Positions 16,468 through 25,712 of a DNA stretch of 64,000 nt are shown here, piece by piece. The translations under genes were made by a program, and so were the position numbers. The stretch comes from Alphaproteobacteria bacterium (lineage in GTDB: Bacteria > Pseudomonadota > Alphaproteobacteria > UBA6615). How positions within the stretch are numbered: the stretch's first letter is position 1; each line of letters begins with the position of its first letter. Where the stretch lies: contig JAJFIX010000009.1 in assembly GCA_021774575.1 (NCBI GenBank), positions 248,001 through 312,000 on the forward strand, given 5' to 3'. The notes under the pieces were generated by a model. That model had not been told where the DNA came from and did not search any database. It worked only from the letters and a program-made list of their open reading frames with translations.

Positions 16468-18729
16468 CTAAACCGTAACCGAGGCTTGTCCGGTTTCGCG
16501 CTTGCCGACTGCGCCGATGACGGCGGCCTGGAGATAGCCGGCTTCGACAAGGGCTGCAACGCAGGCTTCGGTTTTTTCTGCCGGGACGCTTGCCAACAAG
16601 CCGCCGGCGGTTTGCGGGTCGAAGATGAGCGGAAAAGAGGGATGGTCCCGACGCTCATCGGCCACGTCAATCGATGCGCCGAGCCGCGCATTTTGGGATT
16701 GCAGAGAGCTGGCAATCCCAGATCCTATGGTTTCGGCGGCGCCATCGAGAATAGGCAGCGCGTCGAGGTCCAGGGCGGCCATGGCGCCCGATGCCTCGGT
16801 CATTTCCAGCAGGTGTCCGACGAGCCCGAAGCCCGAAACATCGGTGCAAGCGGTCGTCCCGTGCTGCTTCAATATTTCGGCCGCCACCGCATTTGATTGA
16901 ACCATTCCGGCCAGAGCGGCATCGATCCATCGGCCTTTAGCTTTATGGCGCATATCGGCGGCCAACAAGCAGCCGGTGCCGATGGGCTTGGTGACGATTA
17001 AATTTTGACCCGGCACCAAGCCAGACTTTCGCAAAATTCTGTCATTATCGGCGGCGCCATTAACGGCAAAACTCAGAGAAAGCTCCAGGCCTTCGCTGGT
17101 ATGACCGCCAATGAGAGCTGTCTCATGGTCGCTGAGGACTTTCCTCGCGCCCGACATCATCTGGCTGAGATCCTGCTCGGTCTTTTCTTCGATGCCATAG
17201 GGCAAAGTGGCGAGGGCGAGGGCGGTCTGGGGCGTTGCGCCCATGGCAAAAAGGTCGTTGAGGGCGTGATTGGCCGCAATCGCGCCAAACAGAAAGGGGT
17301 CGTCGATAAAGGATCTGAAACCGTCAACCGAATGAACCATAACCTTGCCGGCCGGGGGCACAACAATTGCCGCGTCGTCACGCTGGTCGAGGCCGAGGGC
17401 GGCATTGGGCCCGTCCTCTTGGGTAAATTTATCGAGAACGCGGGCCAGAATTTCCGGGCCGACTTTTGCCCCGCAGCCGCCACAACGCATCGCATTTTCG
17501 GTGAGCTCGCGTATGGTTTTTGCGGTTGCCAGGCCGGGCGCAAAATCTAGCGGCTCGTCGTCGTCCATCTCCGGCAGGGTGTTGAACCGCTCCATAAACC
17601 TGACGTCGATCCAGTTTTTCCAGCGCCAGACGGTCCGGCCTTCGACGGATAATCCGCGCCAAGAGGCGACCGCGCACTTATCGCCGGTGGTGATAAGGCT
17701 CAAAAAATGAGATTGGGGCCGGTACGGTTTGGTCTTTTTGCCGGTCAAAGCCAGGCGCAGGTTTTTATCAAGCGGCGGACCCTGGCGAACTGCAAAGACA
17801 CCGGATTTGGGGCGGGGATGATCGGCCACGGCGGCAATATCACCGGCGGCAAAAACCGACGGATCGCTTAATGTTTGTAGGGTGTCGCTGACGGCGATGA
17901 ACCCATTTGCGTCGAGCTCCAGCCCCGTATCGCGTAGCCAATTTGGCGCACTTGCCATGGTTACCCAAAAGAGATGATCCACGGCAATTGGATCGCCGAC
18001 CGCACAGGCAATGTATTTTATGCCGTTCCGCTCATCTATATGCAGAACCGTGCGCCCCGTATGAACAGTGGCGTTCCGTGCCGCGAGAACACGGCGAAAT
18101 TTGCGCCGAACCGAGCTTGCATGGGTTGGCAAAATATCGTCGGTGTCGGTGACGATGTGGAATTCGGGGGCATGTGCAGTCTGGCGCTCTGCCGCCAGCC
18201 GCTGTTGCAGGGCGAGCAACAACTCAACACCGCCGGCTCCGGCCCCGACAATTCCGATGCGCGCCGGCCGATCCAGGGTATTTGCCGCTGTCGACAGCTC
18301 GGAAAAGCGGCGAAGAAATTTATCGATCGGTTTGATCGGAATGGCGTGCTCGGTGGCGCCGGGTATTCCAGTCATCAACGGCGTGGAGCCGGTGTTAATG
18401 CTGAGCACGTCATAGTTAATGGCAGGACGGTTGCGGCACATTATGCGCTTGCCGTCTAAGTCGAAGCCGGTGACCTCATCGACAAAAAATTGCGCGCCAG
18501 CAAAACGCGCCAGAGGCCGCAGGTCAATATGAGTATCGTCATGGGAATAATGCCCGGCAATAAGTCCTGGCAGCATACCGGAATAGGGTGCCGCCGCCTC
18601 CCGAGATATCAGGGTTAGCCGCACCCCGGGCATTGGTTGCATGCCAAAACGGTGCAAGATTTGGACATGGGCATGCCCACCGCCAACCAAAACCAGGTCC
18701 TTTAAGGTAATCGAGGGTCGAGACTTCAA
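16468..18729 (-). CDS. selD: Fused NADH dehydrogenase-like protein / selenide, water dikinase
   Basis: A 753-residue two-part protein. Residues 1-400 are an FAD/NAD(P)-binding oxidoreductase of the Ndh family: VLVGGGHAHVQIL at 13-25, a second nucleotide motif GIVGAGAGGVELLLAL at 159-174, and FAAGDIAAV near 293. Residues 412-753 are SelD, which makes selenophosphate from selenide and ATP: MRCGGCGAKVG (catalytic C419, K422), GGHTSEGLEL, FDPQTAGGLL. The second Cys of the E. coli GCGCK motif is Ala here. The start is a TTG with GGTAGG upstream, as no ATG precedes the first FAD motif. It is last in a minus-strand operon with the AhpD-like selenoprotein, so the flavin half may couple selenium reduction to SelD (inference). 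Confidence 0.93.
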   Translation of the reverse strand: MKSRPSITLKDLVLVGGGHAHVQILHRFGMQPMPGVRLTLISREAAAPYSGMLPGLIAGHYSHDDTHIDLRPLARFAGAQFFVDEVTGFDLDGKRIMCRNRPAINYDVLSINTGSTPLMTGIPGATEHAIPIKPIDKFLRRFSELSTAANTLDRPARIGIVGAGAGGVELLLALQQRLAAERQTAHAPEFHIVTDTDDILPTHASSVRRKFRRVLAARNATVHTGRTVLHIDERNGIKYIACAVGDPIAVDHLFWVTMASAPNWLRDTGLELDANGFIAVSDTLQTLSDPSVFAAGDIAAVADHPRPKSGVFAVRQGPPLDKNLRLALTGKKTKPYRPQSHFLSLITTGDKCAVASWRGLSVEGRTVWRWKNWIDVRFMERFNTLPEMDDDEPLDFAPGLATAKTIRELTENAMRCGGCGAKVGPEILARVLDKFTQEDGPNAALGLDQRDDAAIVVPPAGKVMVHSVDGFRSFIDDPFLFGAIAANHALNDLFAMGATPQTALALATLPYGIEEKTEQDLSQMMSGARKVLSDHETALIGGHTSEGLELSLSFAVNGAADNDRILRKSGLVPGQNLIVTKPIGTGCLLAADMRHKAKGRWIDAALAGMVQSNAVAAEILKQHGTTACTDVSGFGLVGHLLEMTEASGAMAALDLDALPILDGAAETIGSGIASSLQSQNARLGASIDVADERRDHPSFPLIFDPQTAGGLLASVPAEKTEACVAALVEAGYLQAAVIGAVGKRETGQASVTV

Positions 18730-18770: not shown

Positions 18771-19310
18771 TTAACCGGCGGCGGCGCCGAATTGGAAGGA
18801 CGCCATCATCACCGCCATGCCGTAATAGACGGCGATCATGCCGCCCAGCTCGGTGATCTGCCCATCGTTGAAATAGGTGCGGCCTTTATCGTACCAGCCT
18901 TTATCCAGGGTCTTGGGCGCCCGGTACATCCAGTAGCCATAGCCGATGGCCCACTTTTCCGCGTCGGTGAACCGGTCGTCTTGCGCAAAATTCTCATTAC
19001 ACGCCGCGTCGATCAGTTCTTCGGTTAGCCCGTCTTCCTGCGCGCGTTTGGATCGCAGGCTGGAAAAATATTTATCGCCAGCCTTCCGCGCCAGTTGAAT
19101 TCGAACCATTTCTTTCAGTTTATGATCCACATTGCCTTCGAAAAAAGACAGATGCATGGCATCAAAAAAAGCCTCGGCATATTTTGGCGCATGGGCCAGG
19201 ACCTGAAGAAATTCGGGCCCAGGGACCTGCAATTCCTCCGCCATTTCGAGGTATTTTCCGAGCTTTTCGGAAGTGATTTGATCTTTTGCTAACGGTTCAA
19301 TGATCGGCAC
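18771..19310 (-). CDS. AhpD-like / carboxymuconolactone decarboxylase-fold protein lacking redox residues
   Basis: A 179-residue paralogue of the selenoprotein upstream. The segment RIQLARKAGDKYFSSLRSKRAQEDGLTEE aligns without gaps to the RVQLSRLAYCNY-Sec-GNVRS segment of the neighbour, so the CxxU pair is replaced by Asp and Phe (DKYF). AhpD proteins normally need this pair for peroxidase or disulfide chemistry, so this copy should be redox-inactive and perhaps structural or regulatory. The rest of the AhpD helix bundle is kept (DRFTDAEKWAIGYGYWMYRAP). The start is GTG with a weak ribosome binding site. It lies 52 bp after the selenoprotein and 41 bp before selD. Confidence 0.82.
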   Translation of the reverse strand: MPIIEPLAKDQITSEKLGKYLEMAEELQVPGPEFLQVLAHAPKYAEAFFDAMHLSFFEGNVDHKLKEMVRIQLARKAGDKYFSSLRSKRAQEDGLTEELIDAACNENFAQDDRFTDAEKWAIGYGYWMYRAPKTLDKGWYDKGRTYFNDGQITELGGMIAVYYGMAVMMASFQFGAAAG

Positions 19311-19362: not shown

Positions 19363-20046
19363 TTATTCGGCCGCCTCACCCTCGGAGCTGACTTTGGTGG
19401 CTGCCTTGGCGGCTTCCTCCGCCGCCCGCTGCATCGGTCCATCCAAATGGGAGACCGGTGTGTCGCCATAGATCCGCCGGGATTCCTCCTGGCTGACCAA
19501 ACGGCCGTCGGGGGTGAACATCGGATAAAAATCCAATGTTCCAAAAAACGTGTGATAGCCAATATTAAAGGCATTGAACGCCGCTAATTCGACAATCTCT
19601 TCTGTCGTATAGTGTTTTTTCAATTCGTCATAAAACGCTTCGTCGAGCTTTTCCGGCGCCAAATGCATCCACTCGCTATAGCGCAAAGCGATCTTTTCAG
19701 CGTCGCTGAAATGCGCGCTGTCTTCATATCGATCGAAACCCTCGTCGATCATTTCCTCAGTCAATCCATTCTGCTTCGCCGAAGTAGAGCGGACATTGCC
19801 TCAGTAATTGCAGTAGGCGAGCCGGGAAAGTTGAACGCGAATGATTTCTTTCAGATTATGGGAAACGACCCCCATATTAAAAACGGTGCCCCAAGCGATA
19901 TAGAGCGCCTTAGCGAGTTCAGGGTTTTGACCCTGGATGGCGTGAAAGGCGGGGTCGGGTGCTCGATGTCTGAGAGCCTTGTTGACGAAGGGACGCAACG
20001 CCGTCTTCTTCAGCTCTTCAACATCCAGCATTTTTACATTCGGCAT
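19363..20046 (-). CDS. AhpD-like selenoprotein with a CxxU redox motif (TGA read as Sec)
   Basis: Read through the in-frame TGA at 19801-19803, this encodes 227 residues of one AhpD-like protein. The codons around it give Y-C79-N-Y-Sec82-G-N-V, a CxxU motif where AhpD has CxxC. Both flanks are co-linear with the paralogue at 18771-19310, which has a sense codon (Phe) at the Sec position, so the TGA is not a true end. Downstream, EEMIDEGFDRYED and HFSDAEKIALRYSEWM are normal AhpD helices. AGGAGACC precedes ATG 20046. A hairpin starting 13 bases after the TGA is a candidate SECIS. The gene heads an operon ending in selD, opposite selA-selB-selC. The role is probably thiol/selenol peroxidase or disulfide reductase in the cytosol (inference). 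Confidence 0.9.
19770..19788 (-). promoter_or_regulatory. Candidate bacterial SECIS hairpin
   Basis: On the minus-strand mRNA, 12 bases after the TGA codon, TCTACTTCGGCGAAGCAGA can fold as CTTC-GGC-GAAG with an outer TCT/AGA stem separated by one A-C mismatch. The apical loop lies about 20-23 bases after the TGA, within the spacing used by bacterial SECIS elements read by SelB, and contains Gs as expected. No folding program was run. Confidence 0.55.
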
Positions 20047-20208
20047 GCCGGTTGGTCTCCTGGTATCCGGTTGGGATTTGTCGGTGTTATATCATCAATT
20101 CGTCGCAGCCCAAAGACTTTGGATGGCTTGACGTTAATCTTGCAACGAGCCTAATTTCCACTGTTGCAATAGCTTGAAAATTAACGCGAAAATCGAGCCC
20201 TTTCAAAT

Positions 20209-21627
20209 ATGACCCAGCCGACCTCATCTCCTCAGGCGAATATTCCGTCACTGGACCTATTGCTGCGTCACCCGGCGGCTGGGGCACTTATGGCCCAGCA
20301 TGGGCGGACCGCGGTGACCCGTGGGCTGCGGCTCGAACTAGAGACGCTGCGCGCGGCATTGGCGAACGAAGTAAATTTGCCGGAGCCTCGGGAGATATTG
20401 TCTTCTGTCGCAAACCGGTTGGAGGCCCAGGCACAGCCCGGATTGAAACCGGTGTTTAACCTGACCGGGACGGTTCTGCACACAAATTTGGGCCGCGCGC
20501 CCCTGCCCGAAGAGGCAATTGCCGCGATGGTCGAAGTTGCCGGCAAGCCGGCCAATCTTGAATTCGATTTGGAAACCGGAAAAAGGGGGGACCGCGATAC
20601 ACATATTGAGGCGCTGATCTGCGACCTTACCGGCGCTGAGGCGGCGACTGTCGTCAATAATAACGCGGCCGCCGTCCTGTTGGCCCTCAATAGTTTGGCC
20701 AACCGGCGTGAAGTTCCGGTGTCGCGGGGGGAACTGGTCGAAATCGGCGGGTCATTTCGAATTCCCGATATTATGAAACGGTCCGGGGCCAAGCTTGTCG
20801 AGGTCGGGACAACCAATAGAACCCATCTGAAAGATTTCGAGGAGGCGATATCGCCCCAAACCGGGCTCTTGATGAAAGTCCATACGAGCAATTATAGTGT
20901 CGAAGGCTTTACCGCTGAGGTCGGAGAAGAAGCCGTGGCGGATCTGGCCCATGCAAATGGACTGGCGCTCATGGTCGATTTGGGCAGCGGTACTCTGGCC
21001 GATTTTTCTGCGCTCGGTCTACCGCCGGAACCGACCCCGGCCAAGAGTTTTGCCGACGGGGTCGACTTGGTAACTTTCAGCGGCGACAAGTTGCTCGGTG
21101 GGCCGCAGGCCGGAATAATTGCCGGACGGGCGGATCTGATTGCAAAGATCAAGCGCAATCCAATGAAGCGGGCTCTACGTATCGACAAGGTGACGATTGC
21201 CGCCCTGGGTGCGGTTCTGCGTCTCTACAGGGACCCCGACAGTTTGGCACGTCGCCTACCGGCGCTGCGTTTGCTGGTGCGTTCGGTTGAGGAAATTGGC
21301 GCGGTCGCCGCGCGGATTGCCCCCGTGGTCACTGCTAGGCTTGGTGATAGCCTGTCGGTGGAAATTGTCGATTGTGCAAGTCAAATAGGCAGTGGCGCCT
21401 TGCCCAAGGAAAGCCTAGTCAGCAAGGCGCTGAGGCTGACACCACCCGGGTCTAAAAGAAAACGCGGTAAGGCACTGGACGAATTGGCCGCAAATTTGCG
21501 TCGCTTGCCGGTGCCGGTGGTCGGGCGCATTCATGATGGCGCGCTGCACCTCGATCTGCGTTGCCTCGAAGACGAGGCCGGGTTTTGCGAGCAACTCGTC
21601 AAATTTGACTTTGGAGCCGGCCAATGA
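20209..21627 (+). CDS. selA: L-seryl-tRNA(Sec) selenium transferase
   Basis: SelA converts Ser-tRNA(Sec) to Sec-tRNA(Sec) using selenophosphate. It has 472 residues. PLP-binding Lys is K294 in FSGDKLLGGPQAG; other signatures are FNLTGTVLHTNLGRAPLP (about 83-100), the VVNNNAAAVLLAL loop (148-160), and LMVDLGSGTLAD. The stop overlaps the selB start in ATGA, so the two are translationally coupled. The start at 20209 is divergent from the selenoprotein gene at 20046, leaving 162 bp for both promoters. No strong ribosome binding site precedes the ATG. Confidence 0.97.
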   Translation: MTQPTSSPQANIPSLDLLLRHPAAGALMAQHGRTAVTRGLRLELETLRAALANEVNLPEPREILSSVANRLEAQAQPGLKPVFNLTGTVLHTNLGRAPLPEEAIAAMVEVAGKPANLEFDLETGKRGDRDTHIEALICDLTGAEAATVVNNNAAAVLLALNSLANRREVPVSRGELVEIGGSFRIPDIMKRSGAKLVEVGTTNRTHLKDFEEAISPQTGLLMKVHTSNYSVEGFTAEVGEEAVADLAHANGLALMVDLGSGTLADFSALGLPPEPTPAKSFADGVDLVTFSGDKLLGGPQAGIIAGRADLIAKIKRNPMKRALRIDKVTIAALGAVLRLYRDPDSLARRLPALRLLVRSVEEIGAVAARIAPVVTARLGDSLSVEIVDCASQIGSGALPKESLVSKALRLTPPGSKRKRGKALDELAANLRRLPVPVVGRIHDGALHLDLRCLEDEAGFCEQLVKFDFGAGQ

Positions 21628-23549
21628 TTGTCGCAACAGCCGGCCATATCGATCATGGCAAGACGACCTTGGTTGCGGCTCTGACCGGTATTGATACCGA
21701 CCGGCTGCCCGAAGAAAAAAGCCGCGGCATGACCATCGATATTGGGTTCGCCTATCGACCGATCACCGATGGCCCGGTCATGGGGTTTGTTGATGTGCCG
21801 GGGCATGAACGGTTTGTCCGCAACATGCTGGCGGGGGTGGCTGGGATTGATTTTGCCCTTCTGGTCATTGCCGCCGACGATGGTCCGATGGCCCAGACCG
21901 ACGAGCATTTGGCCATACTCGATCTTCTCGGGGTCGAGGTGGGGGCGGTCGCTCTGACTAAAATCGACCTTGTCGAGGCTGACCGGGTCGATCAGGTCGA
22001 ACGGGACATTCACGCATTATTATCGCCGACTGCACTCAAAGACGCGCCGATTTTCCGAACCTCGGGCGCGACCGGTGACGGCGTTCAGGCCCTGAGCGAT
22101 CATTTAGAAGCGGCGGCCCGGGGGCACGAAATGCGCGGTCGCGCGGGCCCATTCAGGCTGGCGATCGACCGATGCTTTTCGGTTGCCGGAGCAGGGTTGG
22201 TGGTGACCGGCACGGCTTTTTCGGGGTCGATTGGACTTGATGATCGCTTGGTGATTTCGCCGACAGGGACGCCGGTTCGGGTGCGCAGCATCCATGCCCA
22301 AAATCAAAAATCTGAAAGTGGCCATGCGGGCCAGCGTTTGGGCATCAATCTTGCCGGGTCTGGCCTCGCCCGGGCCGGTGTCCATCGCGGCAATTGGCTG
22401 GTTGGCGAAGGGGCGCACGCGCCCGCCAACCGGCTCGATTGCTGGATCAGAATCCTGCCCGGAGAGGCAAAACCGCTGCGCCACTGGGCGCCGGTGCATG
22501 TTCACCTCGGTGCGATGGAAGTTACCGCGCGGGTTGCTCTGCTGCGGGATAAATCCATACCGCCGGGGGGCGAGGGGCCGGTGCAGTTGGTGCTCGACGA
22601 GGCGGTCGGTGCGCTCGGTCGAGATCGCCTGATACTGCGCGACGCGTCGGCCCAGCGCACCATCGGCGGCGGCCGAGTGATCGATCCCTTTGCGCCGTCG
22701 CGTGGTCGCGCCAAACCGACACGCCTGAGCCTTTTAGCGGCGATGGACCAGCCCGATCCGGCGCAATCGCTTGCGGCGGTACTGGATGTTGCCCCTACAG
22801 GAATTGACGAAAACTGGTTTCGCACATCGCGCAATCTCGATACAGCTTCCATGGCGGATCTCATCAGGGGATTGGGGGCGGCCCGTTTCGGCATGGCCGA
22901 AGGCGGCGTGATATTTTCCGCCCTGTCTTGGGAAAAGTTACTTGCCACTATCGTTGATATTATCGGCGCTCTCCATGAAGACGCGCCTGAACTCGCCGGG
23001 TTAGAAGAGCAATCTCTGCGCAAGCGGGTGGACCCGAACCTTCGCCCGCCCATATTCCGTGCCATCCTTGAACACATGACCGACCAAGGCGTGGTGGCCC
23101 GTGCCGGGGCGCATTTGGCGTTGCCGGGTCATCGGCCACAAATGACGCCGGTCGACGCGGCTGTCTGGAGCCGTGTCCAAAAAATCCTGGACGAAGACCC
23201 GTTTCGCCCACCCGTTGTCCATGCCTTGGCACAAGACATCGGGTTGACGCCCAGGGAAACCGAACAATTTCTCTCACGCGTGACACGCTTGGGCTACCTT
23301 TATCGCACCGCCCGCAACAGATTTTTCCTCACCGCGGCAATCTGCGAACTCGCCCGCATTGCCGAAACCGTCGCGACCCAAGCAGCCGATGGCGGCCTCG
23401 AAATACCCGCCTTCCGCAGTGCCTCCGAAATCGGCCGCAATCTCGCCGTTGAAGTGTTGGAGGCCTTCGATAAGGCCGGCTTAACCGCTCGAGATGGTAA
23501 TAAACGACGCCTACTTGCACCAGCCGCGCGGATTTTTCCCGACGTCTGA
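21624..23549 (+). CDS. selB: Selenocysteine-specific translation elongation factor SelB
   Basis: SelB brings Sec-tRNA(Sec) to the ribosome at UGA codons followed by a SECIS. The 641 residues have GTPase motifs G1 GHIDHGKT (7-14), G3 DVPGHE (57-62) and G4 TKID (113-116), then EF-Tu-like domains II and III, and C-terminal winged-helix repeats that bind SECIS RNA (from about residue 390; the ending [22 protein letters not shown] is typical). It overlaps selA by 4 bp. The tRNA-Sec gene starts 79 bp after its stop. Confidence 0.97.
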
Positions 23550-23628: not shown

Positions 23629-23722
23629 GGAAGAGTATCGTCCCCGGCGGGGCGCCCGGTCTTCAAAACCGGTGGAGGGGCGCCAAGCGCTCCTTTGGGT
23701 TCGACTCCTGCCTCTTCCGCCA
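23629..23722 (+). tRNA. selC: tRNA-Sec (anticodon TCA)
   Basis: A 94-base tRNA with the traits of tRNA(Sec): acceptor GGAAGAG/CTCTTCC, discriminator G and encoded CCA, an extended D stem (CCCC-GGC-GGGG), anticodon stem CCGGT/ACCGG around loop CTTCAAA giving anticodon TCA, a long variable arm (GGAGGGGCGC-CAA-GCGCTCC), and T-loop TTCGACT. The 3' strand from the T-loop to the discriminator has 12 bases, against 13 in E. coli selC, so the acceptor-T helix is 7/5 or 8/4 rather than 8/5. It sits directly after selB. Its 3' end TGCCTCTTCCGCCA is repeated downstream. Confidence 0.93.
23709..23722 (+). repeat. att-like direct repeat, copy 1 (3' end of tRNA-Sec)
   Basis: TGCCTCTTCCGCCA, the 3' end of selC, recurs exactly at 30191-30204, and its first 12 bases recur at 26587-26598, all in the same orientation. 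A tRNA 3' end repeated at the edges of acquired DNA is the usual mark of site-specific integration. No integrase remains in the interval. Confidence 0.6.
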
Positions 23723-23798
23723 CATTCACATTTTGTCCTGCCCCCTAAAACAGTGCCAGAACCTGATAGAGTTTGGGATATTTTTGGAGGGGAAAAAG

Positions 23799-24065
23799 AT
23801 GGCACGGAAACGATTTTCGGATGAGGACGTATTGAACCTGTTGCGTCAAATTGAGCTGGCGCTTTCGACCGGGAGCGACGTTCAATCTGCCTGCCGTAAA
23901 GTCGGCATTAGCGATGGCACATATTACACTTGGCGCAAGCGCTATGGCGGGATGGCGAAGTCGCAGCTACATGAGTTCAAGTCGAAAGTTGGTGGGTCAA
24001 TCACAAGAAGGTCGAGCGGCTGTGGCGTGAGGAGGGACTGCAACTGCCTGTCCGTCATCATATAA
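23799..24065 (+). pseudogene. IS3-family transposase remnant (OrfA start joined to OrfB piece)
   Basis: The start ARKRFSDEDVLNLLRQIELAL and ACRKVGISDGTYYTWRKRYGGM is the helix-turn-helix OrfA of the IS3 family. It breaks off after GGMAKSQLHEFKSKV, where the leucine-zipper part should be. From about 23990 another frame reads VNHKKVERLWREEGLQLPVRHH, a piece of the OrfB integrase near its helix-turn-helix segment, so an internal deletion removed the rest. A good TTGGAGG precedes the ATG. TGTCCTGCCCCC at about 23735 resembles a left terminal repeat. No active transposase can be made. Confidence 0.75.
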
Positions 24066-25190: not shown

Positions 25191-25712
25191 TCAGGCGGCA
25201 TTTTGATTGTGCTGATTTATCTGTTCGATGCCATAGTTGAATTTGGCTCCGGTGATAAGTTTTGGCAACTGATTTTTGCCTCGTAGCCGCAGCCAGTTTT
25301 TCTCTGCCTCTTTGATGACTTTGAAGACCATTGCCTCCATGGTTTTCATGGATAAGCAGCCTTTGGAGCGTTTGGTCCGGTGACGCACCGTCGCGAAGGT
25401 GCTTTCAATGGGGTTTGTGGTCCGTATGTGGGTCCAATGTTCGGCAGGAGAATCATAGAAGGCAAGCAATTTGCTTGACGTCTTTATTTCTTCCGTGGTG
25501 GGGCCGGCGGTGGTTTTGGCTTCGATATTGGTTGGAGAGGCTTGGAAGTAACCCCCTTTTTCATCGTTTTGCCCCGAATTGTGGTTGATCGTGTTGGTGC
25601 TTTGGCTGGCATATCGAATCTCCGTATGATTAGGCTGAGTGACCTGTCTCTGAAACGAACTCAACAAATGAGACCTCGCCAACAGGGACAAGGATATTCT
25701 CGACATTTTCAA
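25191..25712 (-). pseudogene. IS256-family transposase, C-terminal remnant
   Basis: The segment LLAFYDSPAEHWTHIRTTNPIESTFATVRHRT and RSKGCLSMKTMEAMVFKVIKEAEKNWLRLRG is the well-conserved C-terminus of IS256 (mutator) transposases and carries the final catalytic Glu region. Only about the last 100-110 residues are recognisable; the DDE N-terminal parts are missing. The first 60-80 residues of the open frame match nothing I know and overlap the end of the DUF6338 gene, so that part is a junction artefact. Confidence 0.75.

Follow-up and report, generated by a model that had tools for sequence, protein, structure and literature searches.

Two adjacent genes on the minus strand of the 64,000-nucleotide stretch of DNA analysed here (the window) most likely encode a heteromeric selenoperoxidase or thiol oxidoreductase, made of one selenocysteine (Sec) subunit and one cysteine-free subunit; we put the probability of this reading at about 0.75, with the chemistry and the role of the partner inferred from AhpD and Sestrin enzymes. 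AhpD-like selenoproteins are known, and an obligate pair of such a protein with a homologous pseudoenzyme appears to be undescribed. The selenoenzyme clade appears to be Sec-only and permanently paired, and standard annotation would give two truncated genes beside an apparently non-functional copy.

A predicted selenocysteine at codon 82

The gene for the Sec-containing AhpD/CMD-like subunit occupies 19363..20046 on the minus strand, from an ATG at 20046 to a TAA at 19365-19363, and is preceded by a Shine-Dalgarno-like AGGAGA (20056..20061, minus strand), recognised from the sequence 9 nt upstream of the ATG. With its single in-frame TGA (19803-19801) read as Sec, the product is 227 amino acids long and contains the redox motif C79-N-Y-U82 (CNYU, 19801..19812, minus strand); its predicted mass of about 25.8 kDa agrees with the roughly 25 kDa expected in a first-pass annotation, which also had the coordinates and the C79-x-x-Sec82 motif right. 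Mechanical ORF calling lists two ORFs at the same place. Read through, the protein scores 27.1 bits against Pfam CMD (PF02627; gathering cut-off 23), and neither half alone has a Pfam match at E 0.001. The AhpD motif E-x11-C-x2-C-x3-H is incomplete: E67, C79 and U82 are present, and the His position is taken by Arg86 in 64 of 64 sequences. The window protein passes none of the curated NCBIfam models. The nearest, and the nearest curated selenoprotein model, is NF053654 (YciW-related (seleno)protein), which matches 25 of the 25 clade members tested; its cut-off is 310 bits, and the window protein, with 65.7 bits, falls outside that family as defined. TIGR01926 (peroxidase-related enzyme) gives 34.6 bits against 81.8.

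We scanned GTDB contigs with the family alignment and found 71 loci, 70 of them readable at codon 82. The loci come from Alpha- and Betaproteobacteria, Tectomicrobia, Nitrospinaceae, SAR324 and one Chloroflexi MAG. Codon 82 is TGA in all 70, with open frames on both sides, which is far more than chance would give, and neither Cys nor another stop is found there, which is the outcome of the homologue search that the first-pass annotation had proposed; the scan used two conserved family peptides, and a Cys form that had lost both would escape it. Every homologue found in genomes of the same family carries the TGA. A Cys form of the Sec clade was seen neither in a class sample of 289 genomes nor in a broad phylum sample of 398, and the latter held no further clade member at E 1e-18. 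Invariant residues flank the TGA on both sides, and upstream of codon 82 as well as downstream of codon 92 most close pairs have a dN/dS of about 0.01-0.15, indicating purifying selection. The comparison thus revealed none of the three observations that would have spoken against a selenoprotein: stops other than TGA are absent from this position, no frameshift came to light, and all complete homologues continue beyond residue 82. Together with the sel genes alongside, these comparative data strongly support the proposed recoding of codon 82 as Sec.

A pseudogene, a sequencing error, or a UGA acting as an ordinary stop and giving a functional 81-residue product would account for a frame that carries a stop and is called as two ORFs. 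We consider this extremely improbable, given the universal TGA between two open frames, the purifying selection that continues after it, the frozen hairpin codons described below, and the restriction of the gene to SelB-positive genomes; pseudogene and sequencing error are rejected because of the conservation of the TGA and the dN/dS values. Genome-wide reassignment of TGA was likewise rejected: selB of this genome ends in TGA, and in 32 loci a single homologous gene contains TGA in both roles, for Sec and for termination, the two being told apart by context.

A second AhpD-like CxxU candidate with an in-frame TGA, LNGCRYUIAHN, was found in the same genome (G000:C37:19443-19784, minus strand; L004), and other genomes of the family have TGA-containing matches that are just as weak. 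The genome also encodes a related Cys form, about 33% identical, with a normal CxxC in the sequence MCEYCGNQRS (G000:C16, L052 1234-1914). Three contigs with matches (L087, L098, L099) are titled Bordetella parapertussis or Klebsiella pneumoniae; they are MAGs, their matches resemble those of Betaproteobacteria MAGs, and the species names look unreliable.

A SECIS-like hairpin

A SECIS-like hairpin lies 3' of the UGA, at 19764..19794 on the minus strand, with a nucleotide-frozen core, CUUCGGCGAAG, at 19784-19774. Codons 88-91, which form the top of the hairpin, read GCT TCG GCG AAG, and not one synonymous change occurs in them among 69 distinct sequences; only the window departs from this, with ACT at codon 88. 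Elsewhere in the gene the mean relative synonymous entropy is about 0.76 (0.77 before this region and 0.75 after it). The loop, in alignment columns 24-26, begins 21 nt past the UGA. The hairpin is part of the minimum free energy structure in 53 of 55 sequences, with a mean pair probability of 0.95. RNAalifold with default settings returned a different short hairpin, and with RIBOSUM scoring the SECIS-like one. Only the pair 18-32 has changes on both sides (CG in 27 sequences, UA in 15, UG in 13; the two-sided changes are in 15 sequences). Because the window's own copy contains an A.C mismatch and has a z of -0.56, no better than shuffled sequences, the evidence for the hairpin is the frozen code and not its stability. 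The predicted structure fits a bacterial SECIS and qualifies as bSECIS-like; the check for a SECIS suggested at first pass is thus borne out as to the constrained synonymous sites and the predicted fold, and the covariation is weak.

Selenocysteine machinery and gene neighbourhood

As the first-pass annotation had stated, selA, selB and selC stand opposite the Sec gene, diverging from it on the plus strand: selA at 20209..21627 (577 bits, cut-off 268), selB at 21624..23549 (425 bits, cut-off 242) and tRNA-Sec at 23629..23718 (64.5 bits). Past the tRNA gene, ORFs at 23733-24065 and 25191-25712 resemble, by eye, fragments of IS-type transposases. On the minus strand, the Sec gene is followed after 52 bp by the partner gene, and this after 41 bp by a gene with a TTG start for a fusion of an NADH dehydrogenase-like protein with SelD (16468..18729; TIGR03169 and TIGR00476, 483 and 273 bits, each exceeding its cut-off). 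A scan for sigma-70 promoters between 16300 and 24000 gave fewer sites than shuffled sequences did.

The operon with the Ndh-SelD gene that had been proposed is correct for this window and is absent from every other locus seen. Such fusions are in themselves nothing unusual (PMC2398784), and among the loci examined linkage of one to the Sec gene occurs in this genome only. Several Betaproteobacteria and Alphaproteobacteria also have the Sec gene linked to selA-selB. No conserved metabolic neighbour was found in the neighbourhoods of homologous loci outside close relatives.

Among 79 relatives, 25 genomes have SelB over cut-off, and 18 of these carry the Sec gene; none of the 54 others does (counts uncorrected for kinship). 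Conversely, all 18 family genomes with the Sec gene have SelB. Fifteen of 21 more distant carriers have SelB as well, and five of the other six have tRNA-Sec over the gathering score; the missing SelB genes are likely gaps in incomplete MAGs.

The cysteine-free partner

The partner gene (18771..19310, minus strand) has a GTG start and encodes a cysteine-free AhpD/CMD-like protein of 179 amino acids, with Asp at position 79 and Phe at position 82, which scores 24.6 bits against Pfam CMD (PF02627; cut-off 23). At first pass it had been called a dead paralogue. This is refuted: the gene is full length here and intact in 14 other genomes of the family, its conserved residues are retained, and its dN/dS of about 0.05-0.25 in most close pairs points to purifying selection. 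Position 79 is Asp in 63 of 64 sequences and position 82 is Phe in 57 and Ser in seven; the partner retains the His63, Lys66, Glu67, Arg70, Tyr81, Arg86 and Ser87 of the Sec subunit. The copy in the window, with its branch length of 0.7, its GTG start and no overlap with the Sec gene, is more diverged than others, yet it keeps these residues.

The partner directly follows the Sec gene in 63 of 66 assessable loci, in several phyla. In 20 loci the two reading frames share 1 nt (TAATG), and in 12 they share 4 nt (ATGA), which suggests translational coupling in many genomes. Of the three exceptions, one is a gene fusion (L078, see below) and two, L118 and L122 from the same genus, lack the partner. 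One genome (G001) has a tandem array of Sec gene, cysteine-free partner and Sec gene (L038 8384-10294), in which the C-terminal halves of the two Sec copies are nearly identical, suggesting gene conversion or recent duplication. Another genome of its genus, G009 (L037 and L118), has the Sec gene only, and a genome search did not find the partner; recombination between tandem copies, or assembly collapse, may perhaps explain this.

In the phylogenetic tree, each subunit forms one group, with SH-aLRT support of 95 and 96 (by a quick method, with long branches flagged). The simplest reading, because of this grouping, is that one old duplication gave rise to both subunits. Pairwise distances of the two subunits are correlated at r 0.85, against a maximum of 0.14 in 1000 permutations, as shared ancestry would also produce.

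Probable association of the two subunits

A SAR324 MAG contains a natural in-frame fusion of both genes (L078:6001-7278), one frame of 426 amino acids with a single TGA. AlphaFold2 models of this fusion (pLDDT 90.5, pTM 0.89, with a disordered linker) and of the unfused pair from locus L056 (pLDDT 90.0, pTM 0.89) pack the two subunits confidently as a heterodimer; for the L056 pair, and for the paired rows of the alignments, the two sequences were joined by translating across the stop codon that separates the genes. Since CMD dimers and Sestrin are already familiar to AlphaFold2, these predicted arrangements support a heterodimer and do not prove it. We infer an obligate heterodimer from the coupling, the natural fusion, the co-inheritance of the genes and the models.

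Alternatively, the Sec subunit may work alone as a homodimer, like an ordinary AhpD/CMD protein, next to a functionally separate and merely co-transcribed neighbour. CMD proteins can be homo-oligomers (the 2PRR dimer), G009 has a Sec gene with no partner (L118), and the pair in the window is separated by a gap instead of an overlap. Set against the near-constant adjacency across phyla, the translational coupling, the fusion, the correlated trees and the confident heterodimer models, this alternative seems rather unlikely.

Probable mechanism

In the proposed mechanism, the UGA at codon 82 would be read as Sec by SelB and tRNA-Sec under the direction of the hairpin just 3' of it, and the resulting AhpD/CMD-like subunit would carry the site Cys79-x-Tyr-Sec82. 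The gene that follows, coupled to that of the Sec subunit in many genomes, would supply a homologous subunit that has Asp/Phe in the place of the redox pair and keeps Glu67, Tyr81 and Arg86, and the two subunits would form an obligate heterodimer laid out like the AhpD/CMD dimer and the two domains of Sestrin2. The second Cys of AhpD, in the position of Sec82, we take to be the attacking residue, and that in the position of Cys79 the resolving one. Most likely, Sec82 would attack an alkyl hydroperoxide, or else another oxidised or electrophilic substrate; Cys79 would then resolve Sec82 as a selenenylsulfide, to be re-reduced by a cellular thiol system. The cysteine-free subunit may stabilise the active one, shape the access of substrate, or bind a ligand.

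AhpD-type enzymes reduce hydroperoxides with a Cys pair and a proton relay (PMC4674687). Peroxide reduction is by this analogy the likeliest, but unproven, chemistry, uncertain because the His of the AhpD relay is replaced by Arg86. The pair could instead be a reductive dehalogenase or another thiol-dependent reductase, with Sec as a nucleophile acting on a carbon-halogen or similar bond, since the debrominase Bmp8 (6OHI/6OHJ) figures among the top matches of both subunits, in sequence as well as in fold. That resemblance, at only about 20% identity, is common to the CMD family, with PA0269 and Atu0492 giving similar scores, and conserved metabolic neighbours were not found, so that we view a dehalogenase as improbable and favour the peroxidase.

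Comparison with known systems

CxxU selenoproteins of the AhpD-like/CMD type have been known since 2005 from the Sargasso Sea and GOS surveys (PMC1088965, PMC2398784; reviewed in PMC13188914), in agreement with the first-pass remark that such proteins occur in metagenomes. These proteins resemble the Sec subunit in the AhpD/CMD fold, in having Sec for the second Cys of CxxC, and in coming from marine bacteria; they differ in being reported as single genes with many Cys homologues, whereas the collections searched here yielded no Cys form of the present clade. The accessible portions of the three papers make no mention of a cysteine-free partner; only open-access literature was covered, and this absence does not prove novelty. 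Weak matches were seen to TIGR04029 and TIGR04030 (Avi_7170 and Avi_7169), whose names point to a further pair of neighbouring CMD genes.

The best structural match to both pair models is human Sestrin2, with Z 24.1 (297-299 residues, rmsd 3.4-3.6) and Z 23.2 (284 residues, rmsd 3.5). The superposition spans both domains at once, covering 282-299 residues at rmsd 3.3-3.6 over all comparisons (5DJ4, 5T0N, 5CUF), and most single CMD proteins rank lower, at Z 15-17. At the sequence level, neither Pfam nor a profile search of PDB at E 10 gave a match to Sestrin. The N-domain of Sestrin2 is AhpD-like and catalytic (C125, Y127 and H132, with Leu128 standing where the second Cys would be), its C-domain lacks cysteines, and the protein overlays the 2PRR dimer (PMC4674687). 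The modelled pair would thus have the same arrangement, catalytic domain first and cysteine-free domain second; by motif, C125 corresponds to Cys79, Y127 to Tyr81, Leu128 to Sec82 and His132 to Arg86. Sestrin2 differs in being one chain, where the pair is encoded by separate genes in every genome except one, and in binding GATOR2, a eukaryotic function. A 2024 review (PMC11429811) cautions that AlphaFold predictions for Sestrins lean towards the conformation already known. As described there, fused bacterial proteins from Corynebacterium ureicelerivorans and Comamonas aquatica similarly combine two AhpD-like domains, one of them without cysteines; in those fusions the cysteine-free domain is N-terminal and the other uses Cys, whereas in the present pair the catalytic subunit comes first, uses Sec, and is encoded separately.

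More tentatively, the pair may be a bacterial two-subunit counterpart of Sestrin, fused at least once (in SAR324), in which a Sec hydroperoxide reductase is joined by a cysteine-free subunit that would control activity or interactions, its old pocket (Glu67, Asp79, Tyr81, Arg86) sensing a ligand or substrate; we hold this as a possibility on the doubtful side. The natural fusion and the Sestrin-like layout offer a bacterial system in which to test the conversion of an AhpD dimer into catalytic and non-catalytic halves, the step proposed for the origin of Sestrin.
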